From the NCBI GenBank assembly GCA_027486795.1, contig JAIXOI010000039.1, positions 40,659-104,658 on the forward strand: a stretch of DNA of 64,000 bases, written 5' to 3'. The notes below the pieces were generated by a model. The model had not been told where the DNA came from. It worked only from the letters and a program-made list of their open reading frames with translations, and did no database searches. This DNA is from Sphingobacteriales bacterium. GTDB taxonomy: Bacteria; Bacteroidota; Bacteroidia; Chitinophagales; CAIOSU01. Each line of letters opens with the position of its first letter. The first letter of the stretch is position 1. Of the stretch, positions 34,991 through 38,537 are shown piece by piece. The translations under genes were made by a program, and so were the position numbers.

Positions 34991-35920
34991 ATGAAGATAT
35001 CAGTTATCGGTGCAGGCAATGTAGGCTCAACCTGCGCTAATGTTTTAGCCCATTACGATTTGGTAAAAGAGGTGGTTTTGCTCGATATTAAGCAAGGTAT
35101 AGCCGAAGGCAAATCTTTGGATATGTGGCAAGCATCGCACATCAACGGTTACAGCACTCGTATCAAAGGTGTTACTAATGATTATAACGCAACTGCCGGT
35201 TCTGATGTAGTGGTTATTACCTCGGGCTTGCCTCGTAAACCAGGCATGACCCGCGACGACTTAATTAATACCAATGCGGAGATTGTAAAGAGCGTTACCG
35301 AAAACGTGGTGAAACACTCGCCAAACACTATCATCATTGTGGTATCAAACCCATTGGATGTAATGACCTACTGCGCATACCTTAATGCTGGTTTGCCATC
35401 GAAACAAGTGATGGGCATGGCTGGTATTTTGGATACTGCCCGCTACAAAGCTTTCTTGGCTGACGAATTGAACTGCTCGCCAAAGGACGTGCAAGCTATG
35501 TTGCTTGGTGGCCACGGCGATACTATGGTGCCGCTGCCACGCTACACTACCGTTTCTGGTATCCCAGTTACGGAGTTTGTTGAGGCTGGCCGTTTGGACG
35601 AAATTATCAACCGTACCAAATCTGGCGGTGGCGAAATCGTTAACCTTATGGGAACTTCAGCTTGGTATGCACCAGGCGCTGCTGCTGCCCAAATGGTAGA
35701 AAGCATTATTAAAGACGAAGACCGCATTTACCCAGTATGTGCTTGGTTGCAAGGCGAGTATGGTTTGAATGACATTTACCTAGGTGTACCCGTTAAATTG
35801 GGCAAAGGTGGTATCAAAGAAATCATTGAGCTTAAATTGAACGATGCCGAAAAAGCATTGCTATACAAATCTGCCGACGCGGTGCGCGAAGTATGCTCTG
35901 TATTGGATGCTACTGCGTAA
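34991..35920 (+). CDS. mdh: Malate dehydrogenase
   Basis: 309 residues of the LDH-like malate dehydrogenase type. It oxidises malate to oxaloacetate with NAD in the TCA cycle. N-terminal Rossmann motif 'ISVIGAGNVGSTCANVLA', substrate-binding arginines in 'GLPRKPGMTRDDL', the 'VVSNPLDVMTY' strand, and the catalytic histidine in 'LLGGHGDTMVPLPR' (about residue 174). The start is clear from the Rossmann motif. It is followed by a strong intrinsic terminator, the first of two very similar ones that flank the next two genes. PEP carboxykinase, another oxaloacetate enzyme, lies 6 kb away but is not linked. Confidence 0.96.
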   Translation: MKISVIGAGNVGSTCANVLAHYDLVKEVVLLDIKQGIAEGKSLDMWQASHINGYSTRIKGVTNDYNATAGSDVVVITSGLPRKPGMTRDDLINTNAEIVKSVTENVVKHSPNTIIIVVSNPLDVMTYCAYLNAGLPSKQVMGMAGILDTARYKAFLADELNCSPKDVQAMLLGGHGDTMVPLPRYTTVSGIPVTEFVEAGRLDEIINRTKSGGGEIVNLMGTSAWYAPGAAAAQMVESIIKDEDRIYPVCAWLQGEYGLNDIYLGVPVKLGKGGIKEIIELKLNDAEKALLYKSADAVREVCSVLDATA

Positions 35921-35945
35921 TTAGCGCATAGTGCTATAAATTTCA

Positions 35946-35984
35946 AACGCCCCTGCCATTGAGTTGGTAGGGGCGTTTTTTTGT
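35946..35984 (+). terminator. mdh terminator (copy 1 of a near-duplicate pair)
   Basis: AACGCCCCTGCC / GGTAGGGGCGTT stem followed by seven T and GTTGTG. A near copy occurs at 37157-37194, beyond the mystery A/B cassette. Confidence 0.9.
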
Positions 35985-36000
35985 TGTGAATACTAATAAA

Positions 36001-36018
36001 GTCAAGTTATGACTTTAC
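36001..36018. promoter_or_regulatory. Operator-like palindrome, distal copy
   Basis: GTCAAGTTATGACTTTAC differs from the perfect palindrome at 36065 in two positions. The two sites are 64 bp apart and flank the likely promoter of the A/B cassette. Confidence 0.6.
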
Positions 36019-36064
36019 TTTTTATAAATTTAGTAAGGCAATATCTTTACTTTTTGTTGTTTTT

Positions 36065-36082
36065 GTAAAGTTATAACTTTAC
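36065..36082. promoter_or_regulatory. Operator-like palindrome, proximal copy
   Basis: GTAAAGTTATAACTTTAC is a perfect 18-bp palindrome 23 bp before the ATG of the HTH gene. A half site TCTTTAC occurs between the two copies. This is probably the autoregulatory site of protein A. Confidence 0.65.
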
Positions 36083-36105
36083 TTTTATTGCAATAATGAA
36101 TCGCC

Positions 36106-36564
36106 ATGAGTAAGAAAACCCTTATAAGACAGCAGCTTGAAAGCAAAATGTCTTCTTTTTCAGTTTTACAAAATATGAAGAGTCCGCCTACTGGGTGGAT
36201 TAAAGCCGTTCGAGATGCCCTAGGAATGTCATTGGAGCAATTAGGAACCAAATTATCGACCACTAAACAAGGTGTTTTGGATATGGAGCGACGCGAAAAA
36301 AATGGCTCCATTACCCTCAATACCTTAGAGCAAGCGGCAAAAGCACTAGACATGGAGCTTGTTTACGGTTTTGTGCCTAAAGATGGATCGTTGGAAGCGC
36401 TAATTGATAGAAAAGCTAAAGAACTTGCAACGGAAATAGTTTTAAGGGCCTCGAACACCATGAAGCTCGAAGACCAAGAAAACACCTCAAGCCGCATTGC
36501 TAAAGCTATTGAGGAGCGCGCCGATATTATTAAAAGGGAAACACCTAAAATACTATGGGATTGA
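36106..36564 (+). CDS. Mobile mystery protein A (HTH regulator, probable antitoxin)
   Basis: 152 residues that match the pattern of mobile mystery protein A: 'LIRQQLESKM' at the start, then 'PPTGWIKAVRDALGMSLEQLGTKLSTTKQGVLDMERREKNGSITLNTLEQAAKALDMELVYGFVP', an HTH of XRE type (about 38-95). The charged helical C-terminus ('AIEERADIIKRETPKILWD') may contact the partner. The gene overlaps the Fic-domain gene by 10 nt, so the pair is co-translated. The pair is known as a frequently transferred unit and resembles toxin-antitoxin modules; the antitoxin role is inferred from HTH content, overlap and operator sites upstream. Confidence 0.87.
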   Translation: MSKKTLIRQQLESKMSSFSVLQNMKSPPTGWIKAVRDALGMSLEQLGTKLSTTKQGVLDMERREKNGSITLNTLEQAAKALDMELVYGFVPKDGSLEALIDRKAKELATEIVLRASNTMKLEDQENTSSRIAKAIEERADIIKRETPKILWD

Positions 36565-37151
36565 ATATGGAATACATCAATGGACAGACACCTTTGGATG
36601 AAACGGAACTAGAAGGTTTATTAATTCCTACCATTACAACAAGGGGCGAGCTTGACGAATTTGAGCAGCAAAATATTGAGCAAGCGCTTCAGCGGTTAGT
36701 TGGGAGGCGATTGACTGCTGAAAAAATTCTTACAGAGCAGTTTGTAATGAACCTTCACAAAAGAATGTATGGCGAGGTTTGGTCATGGGCTGGTAGTTTT
36801 AGACAAACCGACAAGAATCTCGGTATTGATAAATGGCAAGTACCGAGTGCGTTGAAGATATTATTAGATGATACCGTGTATTGGATAAACAATAAGACAA
36901 TGACCCCAGACGAGATTGCCATAAGTTTTAAGCATAGAATTGTAAGCATACATTGCTTCTCCAATGGAAACGGAAGGCACAGCCGCTTAATGGCAGACAT
37001 TATTATTGAGAAAGTATTTGGACAAAAGGTATATACTTGGGGAGCTGGAAATTTAGTTTATCAAAGCCAATCCCGCACGGAATACTTAAGAGCTGTAAGA
37101 GCGGCAGATAAAGGAGATATTAAACCCTTAATAATGTTTGCCAAATCTTAG
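36555..37151 (+). CDS. Mobile mystery protein B (Fic-domain protein)
   Basis: 198 residues with a Fic core: 'HCFSNGNGRHSRLMADIII' near residue 135, which fits HxFxxGNGRxxR, and upstream 'FVMNLHKRMYGEVWSWAGSFRQTDKNLGI', the region before the flap. Fic enzymes transfer AMP or other nucleotides to target hydroxyls; the catalytic histidine, the GNG phosphate loop and the arginine are all present, so activity is plausible. No inhibitory motif (S/TxxxE(G/N)) was recognised in the chain, which suggests control by protein A. Start at 36555 or 36567; the first is kept. The target is unknown. Confidence 0.9.
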   Translation: MGLNMEYINGQTPLDETELEGLLIPTITTRGELDEFEQQNIEQALQRLVGRRLTAEKILTEQFVMNLHKRMYGEVWSWAGSFRQTDKNLGIDKWQVPSALKILLDDTVYWINNKTMTPDEIAISFKHRIVSIHCFSNGNGRHSRLMADIIIEKVFGQKVYTWGAGNLVYQSQSRTEYLRAVRAADKGDIKPLIMFAKS

Positions 37152-37156
37152 ACTAT

Positions 37157-37194
37157 AAACGCCCCTACCAACACCATGGAAGGGGCGTTTTTTT
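37157..37194 (+). terminator. Terminator after the A/B cassette (copy 2 of the pair)
   Basis: AAACGCCCCT / AGGGGCGTTT stem, then seven T in total and GTG. It shares the stem sequence and the run 'GGGGCGTTTTTTTGT' with the mdh terminator. Confidence 0.88.
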
Positions 37195-37211
37195 GTGATT
37201 TTATAGTGATG

Positions 37212-37394
37212 CTACTTTTTGAAAAACCAAGCCAGCGTTGAAACTACTGACATAACTGTGCCACTAACTAAAGGCCAAGTGCCATTGCCATGGTCACCTA
37301 GTTTTATAATTGCACCAGTGGCAACTAACAATACTCCGCTTATCATAAAGTATATAACAAGGATATTCATTTTACGGCTATCAACAGTTTTCAT
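37212..37394 (-). CDS. Small membrane protein, unknown
   Basis: 60 residues with two hydrophobic segments ('MNILVIYFMISGVLLVATGAI' and 'WPLVSGTVMSVVSTLAWFF') and a basic end (FKK). No family recognised. It lies in a minority orientation between two plus-strand units. The residue pattern looks like a real two-helix protein, but short length keeps confidence modest. ATG at 37370 is an alternative. Confidence 0.52.
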   Translation of the reverse strand: MKTVDSRKMNILVIYFMISGVLLVATGAIIKLGDHGNGTWPLVSGTVMSVVSTLAWFFKK

Positions 37395-37591
37395 AGGGTA
37401 CAGAATTTTAATAATGATACGAAATTATATCAATACTAGCAAAAATCTTGCTTTGGAAAGTTTTTTATAATTGGTACCCAATTCTTGGTCTTTTTCTTCC
37501 CGTGCTACGATTAAATTTACTGATCGGCTCAAAAAATGTCCAATTGCGAGCCGATTAGCAAGCCACCATACCAGCCCTCACCATTTCCCCT

Positions 37592-37599
37592 TACTTTTG
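37592..37599 (+). promoter_or_regulatory. Candidate -7 element of the EamA gene
   Basis: TACTTTTG matches TAnnTTTG and ends 8 nt before the ATG at 37608, again in the form (T)TTTGCACCCaacATG seen at glyS and ABC-F. Confidence 0.5.
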
Positions 37600-37607
37600 C
37601 ACCCAAC

Positions 37608-38537
37608 ATGCAGCCCACCAACCGTAGCAAGTACCTGCCCCATGCCGCATTAATGGCCGTGAGCCTGATTTATGGCACCAACTTTACGCTGGCCAAGCAG
37701 GTTATGCCACTATACATTCAGCCGTTTGGGTTTATACTGCTGCGGGTTATTTTTGCTACTATCATGTTCTGGCTATCAGGGTTGATGATAAAGGAAACCA
37801 TAGCCCGTGCCGATATACCCCGGTTGATGGCGTGCGGTTTGTTTGGCGTAGCCATCAACCAACTGTTCTTTTTCAAAGGCCTTAACATTACCAGCCCTAT
37901 CAATGCTTCGCTGCTGATGATAGTAACCCCCATATTGGTGCTGGTGTTTGCGGTTCTGGGCAAGCAAGAAAAAATGAGCGTGCGAAAGATATTAGGTATC
38001 GTGTTGGGCACAGCAGGCGCCTCGGCCATTATACTATTTAGCAATGCCGCAACCAACAAAGAAGCTAGCATTCTGGGGGATTTATACGTATTTCTGAACG
38101 CAGCGGCCTATGGCACTTTTTTGGTAATTGTAAAACCGCTGATGAGTAAATACCATCCGTTTACGGTCATTAAATGGGTGTTTTTGTTTGGTTTGATACC
38201 CGTGTTGCCGGCAGGATACTCAGAGCTGGTGGCTGTTGATTGGTCGTTGCTTGATACCAGTGCCTGGCTCATTGTGGGCTATGTGCTGCTGTTTACTACT
38301 TACTTGGCTTATGCCCTCAATACCTACGCCATGCGCAGTGTTGAGCCGTCGGTGGTGGGCTACTACATTTATGTGCAACCCATATGCGCCACCATAATAG
38401 CGCTCAGCCTCGGCAGCGACCACCTTACTTGGATAAAAGTAGTGGCCGGCCTCGTAACCTTTGCCGGGGTTTATTTGGCAACTACGAAGCCGACGGCCAA
38501 GGTTACAACTTCCAGCCCACAATCCGTTGCTGAGTAG
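37608..38537 (+). CDS. EamA/DMT-family transporter
   Basis: 309 residues with about ten hydrophobic helices arranged as two EamA repeats. The first begins 'HAALMAVSLIYGTNFTLAKQVMPLYIQPFGFILLR', the second 'ILGDLYVFLNAAAYGTFLVIVKPLMSKYHPF'. Drug/metabolite transporters of this family export amino acids or other metabolites across the inner membrane; the substrate is not predictable. The ORF track start at 37536 adds a proline-rich lead; the ATG at 37608 is preferred because of the adjacent -7 element. Its 3' end overlaps the convergent nitronate monooxygenase gene by 35 bp. Confidence 0.9.
   Translation: MQPTNRSKYLPHAALMAVSLIYGTNFTLAKQVMPLYIQPFGFILLRVIFATIMFWLSGLMIKETIARADIPRLMACGLFGVAINQLFFFKGLNITSPINASLLMIVTPILVLVFAVLGKQEKMSVRKILGIVLGTAGASAIILFSNAATNKEASILGDLYVFLNAAAYGTFLVIVKPLMSKYHPFTVIKWVFLFGLIPVLPAGYSELVAVDWSLLDTSAWLIVGYVLLFTTYLAYALNTYAMRSVEPSVVGYYIYVQPICATIIALSLGSDHLTWIKVVAGLVTFAGVYLATTKPTAKVTTSSPQSVAE

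Follow-up and report, generated by a model that had tools for sequence, protein, structure and literature searches.

Two described modes of insertion bear on the locus reported here. Restriction-modification genes have been described as inserting with a long duplication of the target (Nobusato 2000 and Furuta 2010, as cited in PMC3031569). Elements of the SGI1 type use the 3' end of trmE, and genomic islands of other phyla are known to occupy trmE/mnmE (PMC8409611). The proteins considered here are called 'mobile mystery' proteins A and B, yet we found no way of moving, and no mode of insertion, described for them in the accessible text of the open-licence papers that name the family. Members of the family have a scattered distribution over Bacteroidota lineages and also occur on plasmids. 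One of its members lies in the window, by which we mean the whole stretch of 64,000 nucleotides analysed from the genome of a Sphingobacteriales bacterium.

The cassette downstream of mdh

The A/B cassette of the window follows mdh, a malate dehydrogenase gene (34991-35920, plus strand; TIGR01763, 441 bits) that is conserved in four congeners and whose terminator is the insertion point. Mobile mystery protein A (36106-36564, plus strand) is an antitoxin- or regulator-like HTH_3 protein scoring 140.6 bits against TIGR02612 (cut-off 122.6). Protein B (36555-37151, plus strand) carries a Fic domain (PF02661) and scores 245.6 bits against TIGR02613 (cut-off 124.4). Both values are above the curated HMM cut-offs, which makes the two proteins members of the A/B family. 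The gene for A lies directly 5' of that for B on the same strand, and the two overlap by 10 bp. With respect to the cut-offs, the A-B order and the overlapping junction the window pair is like the TIGR02612/TIGR02613 pair, and A was found adjacent to B in 87/89 and 29/29 surveyed loci. There is nothing unusual about the A/B proteins at this locus.

The canonical Fic motif is HPFx[D/E]GN[G/K]RxxR. That of protein B, located by alignment, is not canonical: it reads HCFSNGNGRHSR, with Asn in place of the usual acidic residue before GNGR, and N-G-N-G-R-H-S-R is invariant in nine aligned B homologues. Because the usual acidic residue is missing, activity of B is not to be assumed. Protein B also matches the phage-defence candidate family PDC-S04 of PADLOC (7e-20).

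Three operator-like repeats precede A in the promoter region of the cassette, spaced at 32 bp between 36001 and 36086 on the plus strand. The first (36001-36022, GTCAAGTTATGACTTTAC) and the third (36065-36086, GTAAAGTTATAACTTTAC) are palindromic, and the second (36033-36054), found by repeat comparison, is degenerate. Position and spacing of the array are kept between the window genome and one of the congeners, G004, while the sequence drifts. Related 18-bp palindromes, often four in number and spaced at 32-33 bp, were seen upstream of mobA at other loci, with at least three strict matches in 24 of 89. The palindrome consensus is near GTCAGGnnnnnnCCTKAC. These arrays look like conserved predicted operators for protein A. 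Addiction-like behaviour of the putative toxin-antitoxin pair would be a plausible reason for its retention.

The original prediction placed the cassette between near-duplicate terminators in the order mdh, T1, A, B, T2, and both the arrangement and the coordinates were correct. T1 (35945-35984, plus strand; AAACGCCCCTGCCATTGAGTTGGTAGGGGCGTTTTTTTGT) is the intrinsic terminator 3' of mdh, recognised by folding, by a genome pattern search and by comparison with the congeners. Its hairpin has a folding energy of -26.6 kcal/mol (z -7.4). T2 (37157-37196, plus strand; AAACGCCCCTACCAACACCATGGAAGGGGCGTTTTTTTGT) lies 5 bp 3' of the B stop codon and folds with -21.1 kcal/mol (z -4.9). A T-tract follows each hairpin. 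The two are direct repeats with 80% identity over 40 nt, 1212 bp apart, and have a 10-bp stem base in common. To the right of T2 the original site resumes with a small minus-strand ORF (37212-37394), for which no Pfam or NCBIfam match was found, and an EamA/DMT-type transporter gene (37536-38537, plus strand) that is syntenic in all four congeners and provides the right-hand anchor.

A stem motif that was common throughout the genome would have robbed this likeness of its meaning, but this is not the case. A whole-genome search with the pattern ACGCCCCT-N-GGGGCGTTTTTT gave exactly two matches in 3.9 Mb, namely T1 and T2, and the looser pattern CGCCC-N-GGGCGTTTTT added one further match at an unrelated site. 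When 46 strong terminators from 465 kb of the window genome were compared with each other, the T1/T2 pair scored higher than all 993 unlinked pairs. Among close pairs there was a single one with a higher score, two ordinary tandem terminators separated by 122 bp. Near-identical tandem terminators with this spacing (AAAGAGTCTTGGTTTTCCAAGGCTCTTT; positions 23396-23545 of contig C11 of the window genome, L185) are another terminator duplication in the same genome.

History of the mdh site

Four congeners, G001 to G004, belong to the same genus as the window genome (G000) and have kept the mdh region. Judged by nucleotide identity, G001 branches off first, followed by G004 and then by the group of G000, G002 and G003. 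G001 lacks the cassette: a single terminator (CGCCCCTACCGGTTTGGTAGGGGCG) follows mdh, and beyond it come the small minus-strand ORF and then the transporter gene. The same ORF, which flanks T2 on the right in the window, natively borders the single terminator on that side. G004 possesses T1, A, B and T2, and its two terminators are almost exactly alike in stem and loop. The stem and loop of T1 are the same in G002, G003 and G004 save for a 1-nt stem deletion in G004.

The two remaining congeners might be mistaken for further cases of either kind. G002 has T1 only, followed by degenerate copies of the operator repeats of the cassette. These remnants beside T1 identify it as a deletion derivative, and we rejected it as an empty site. 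After T1, G003 contains a DUF4172-type Fic gene and a duplicated piece from the 5' part of the transporter gene; next come the final codons of B, and behind these T2 and the small ORF. Since the last B codons still stand 5' of T2, an independent insertion at the terminator was rejected here as well, and the DUF4172 Fic segment appears to have overwritten an older A/B cassette.

The simplest history is a single insertion after the split of G001, a terminator on both sides thereafter, and later deletion or replacement in some lineages. As had been expected of empty and occupied sites, G001 has one terminator rather than two and the occupied G004 has two, with G002 not counted because it is a deletion remnant; G001 is the only clean empty site (n=1), and it provides the unit-free relative with a single copy. 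The original proposal therefore holds for the mdh terminator as the site of entry and for its present doubling; its further parts, the terminator as a general target or as a piece of the mobile unit, are not supported.

The interval between mdh and the transporter gene is a small variable island (7000-10466 of L066 in G003; 2151-3293 of L067 in G004). The DUF4172-type Fic gene, which has palindromic promoter repeats of its own, is found in both G003 and G004 by DUF4172 and Fic Pfam matches. G000 and G002 seem to retain a remnant of its promoter. In the window the probable remnant was located by eye at 37500-37562 (plus strand) through comparison with G002, G003 and G004, and a consensus search allowing up to three mismatches found no intact palindrome there.

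The generality of terminators was examined at 87 other A/B loci from other genera. No near-duplicate strong terminators were found among them at the chosen cut-off, and the T1/T2 stem was present in none. At most of them strong terminators are missing from both sides. L093 alone has a strong terminator on each side, and these two are only partly alike. A 39-bp terminator duplication with 97% identity at L158 was found only by the repeat search described below. On the strength of this survey we rejected terminators as a general A/B target.

Two explanations of the T1/T2 pair can be judged from these data. The terminators could be unrelated and alike by chance, or through a stem common in the genome, given that terminators of this genus generally have a G+C stem and a T-tract. 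However, the stem pattern is unique in the genome, the pair outscores every unlinked pair, and G004 has the same pairing with the same loop in both copies; a chance origin is refuted at the mdh locus and we give it practically no credence. Alternatively the terminators might belong to the mobile cassette itself, as the original prediction allowed when it had the module carry or duplicate the mdh terminator. T1 and T2 do lie at the cassette edges in both occupied genomes, G000 and G004. Nevertheless, this terminator is missing from the 87 other loci, most of which are without a strong terminator on either side, and a homologous single terminator exists in the cassette-free G001. A terminator-flanked unit is thus largely refuted and very improbable.

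Flanking repeats and insertion sites in the family

A search for repeats between the DNA 5' of A and the DNA 3' of B was made within each locus, using a fixed geometry of 100-500 bp upstream of A and 0-350 bp downstream of B. Direct repeats above threshold were present at 15 of 109 A/B loci, where near-copies of one species among the locus records affect the denominator and not the positive count, and in 17 of 1757 controls (odds ratio 16, p=3e-11). Of these controls, pseudo-cassettes (8/1072) and ORFs (6/246) came from the same loci, and further ORFs (3/439) from G000 and G003. In an independent second locus set taken alone the figure was 4/29 (p=3e-4); over all loci but those at mdh it was 14/107 (p=2e-10). 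The repeats are 27-240 bp long, have a sequence specific to each locus, and are located immediately beyond the operator array on one side and the B stop codon on the other. A unit between direct repeats of local sequence is accordingly seen not only with T1 and T2 but in 15/109 loci, against 1% of controls. In the A/B family it is the local sequence at the insertion point that is recurrently found doubled, not terminators as such. Whatever sits at that point, often the 3' end of a gene, is duplicated. On this view the insulation of host transcription that had been proposed as the merit of a terminator target follows incidentally from insertion at 3' ends and is not a demonstrated design.

About 86% of the A/B loci have no detectable repeat. 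Among the positives L223 is a weak case, its repeat being a member of a dispersed repeat family. The threshold was reached at none of 16 proteobacterial plasmid loci, and the repeat signature is so far an observation on the Bacteroidota side.

Repeats of another appearance were noted at some loci. A sequence of about 130 bp flanks the A/B pair at L247-L252 (G280 and relatives) and has many copies in G280 and its congeners, resembling a cassette-array or dispersed-repeat system. At L239 (G322) the A/B pair is situated directly 3' of a CRISPR-like repeat array, which lies to the left of the cassette.

At five loci (L070, L133, L236, L097 and L130) the repeat consists of the 3'-terminal part of a real gene. 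Inspection by eye suggests mnmE for L070 and L133, from the conserved C-terminus FCIGK and the protein sequence, and a DUF454-like gene for L236; the genes at L097 and L130 are unnamed. The differences between the copies at the five loci fall at third codon positions in 33 of 44 cases (p=2e-8 against one third, p=6e-4 against one half). This excess suggests that each copy had been diverging as coding sequence before the two were brought together. A dead copy made at insertion would change at all positions, and if the target were copied at insertion the third-position share should by our own estimate be about half at most, so the observed 33/44 speaks for donor-borne copies. The two copies resemble the ends of orthologous genes whose divergence took place in different genomes. 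Similarity extends to the stop codon at L097, L130 and L236, as is expected of orthologues with diverged intergenic DNA. At L236 eight sites differ between the copies; the single copy in a non-syntenic congener (G451) shares the downstream state at five of them and the upstream state at two, a weak hint that the fragment may be the native copy.

Certain neighbours recur. A BT4734-like gene, so assigned by eye from its sequence, is the upstream neighbour in 8, and mnmE in 6, of about 114 A/B loci. The mnmE loci are not one group on the tree of A and B but are spread over several of its parts, and the scattering of the cassette across families on this tree indicates frequent transfer. The 3' end of mnmE is duplicated in three of the six (L070, L133 and L110), with boundaries at about -77, -35 and -18 relative to the stop codon, and the other three are without a repeat. 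There is thus no constant att core at this target gene. A regular-expression search of the flanks of 116 loci gave no match to the canonical tyrosine recombinase motif.

Rhizobium plasmids (L263 and relatives) present a different picture. The cassette lies between two convergent genes in seven records and is lacking in many close relatives. Records with and without the cassette match as far as the stop codon of each gene, and their differences are confined to the interval between the two. To judge from this match, the Rhizobium boundaries are set by homology and not by a fixed target. The series forms a natural set of occupied and empty sites that is useful for studying insertion on a fine scale.

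Mode of insertion and comparison with known systems

The best explanation, to which we give somewhat better than an even chance, is a homology-assisted insertion of donor DNA that already contained a version of the neighbouring gene end or terminator. The HTH-Fic cassette would have entered the site of mdh, terminator and small ORF in the ancestor of G000, G002, G003 and G004, after the split of G001, on a donor segment that probably also bore the donor's mdh end and terminator. Homologous recombination within mdh or the mdh terminator would have made one join, and a junction with little or no homology, just 5' of the resident terminator, the other. As a result the incoming terminator would have become T1 while the resident one stayed as T2. 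The final structure would be no different if a circle had integrated by a single crossover. The same process, anchored on any gene end common to donor and recipient, could have given the variable-length repeats elsewhere, and the position of the low-homology junction would decide whether the outcome is duplication, as with T1 and T2, or replacement, as in Rhizobium. Because a terminator of 40 bp is short and non-coding, the codon test is inapplicable at mdh, and a donor origin of T1 is suggested by analogy with the coding repeats. Against this explanation it may be said that the recurrence of mnmE upstream would also be explained by a site-specific integrase acting in trans, that some 86% of the loci are without a repeat, and that G001 is the sole clean empty site at mdh. 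A wider reading, which we offer tentatively and regard as possible rather than probable, is that A/B cassettes are minimal recombinase-free units. They would spread by homologous recombination at the 3' ends or terminators of flanking genes, re-land at the orthologous site and leave donor and resident copies usable for excision or re-transfer.

Flanking repeats of local sequence, strongly enriched as they are, would also result from a true target duplication, in which an enzyme or a repair event inserts the cassette and copies 20-240 bp of target, the two copies diverging later. Long variable duplications are reported for restriction-modification genes (PMC3031569), and the 97% identical 39-bp terminator copies of L158 fit such an event. 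The third-position bias of 33/44 does not, as it exceeds the share of about half that we estimate for one dead and one selected copy; repeat lengths vary widely, and the Rhizobium plasmids display replacement without duplication at one site. We consider target duplication unlikely. A third possibility lies in site-specific integration in trans. The cassette would be mobilizable in cis, and its flanks would be att sites for the integrases of larger elements targeting gene 3' ends such as that of mnmE/trmE. This would account for the six mnmE loci over several parts of the A/B tree and for the L110 repeat starting 18 bp before the mnmE stop codon, it has a parallel in the SGI1 elements at the trmE 3' end (PMC8409611), and gene ends borne by an element would likewise diverge at third positions. 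On the other hand the mnmE repeat boundaries vary among loci, repeats are lacking at three of the six mnmE loci, the motif search found no canonical integrase motif nearby, and many targets would demand many integrases. The chances of this explanation, too, appear low.

Homology-assisted insertion of donor DNA would provide a testable account of the spread of a roughly 1-kb addiction-like cassette that has no recombinase of its own, one that takes in the repeats, the third-position divergence and the mnmE site. It would also extend an insertion mode of the restriction-modification type to Fic-type cassettes. As in the long target duplications of restriction-modification genes, a small selfish-type unit is found between local direct repeats of variable length, and a cassette-free relative has a single copy. 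The A/B case differs in its cargo, an HTH-Fic pair instead of restriction-modification genes, and in the third-position divergence of its coding copies, which suggests donor-borne flanks. With the SGI1-family islands (PMC8409611) the A/B cassettes share the mnmE 3' end as a recurrent site, occupied in six loci and duplicated in three. Unlike these islands they have no integrase motif near them by the motif search, their repeat boundaries vary, and the window locus is at mdh. Finally, protein B resembles Fic toxin-antitoxin modules and FICD, its closest solved relative by profile, in having a Fic fold, as judged from sequence, and a small HTH partner encoded upstream. It is set apart from them by the active-site motif HCFxNGNGRHSR, in which Asn takes the place of the usual acidic residue.
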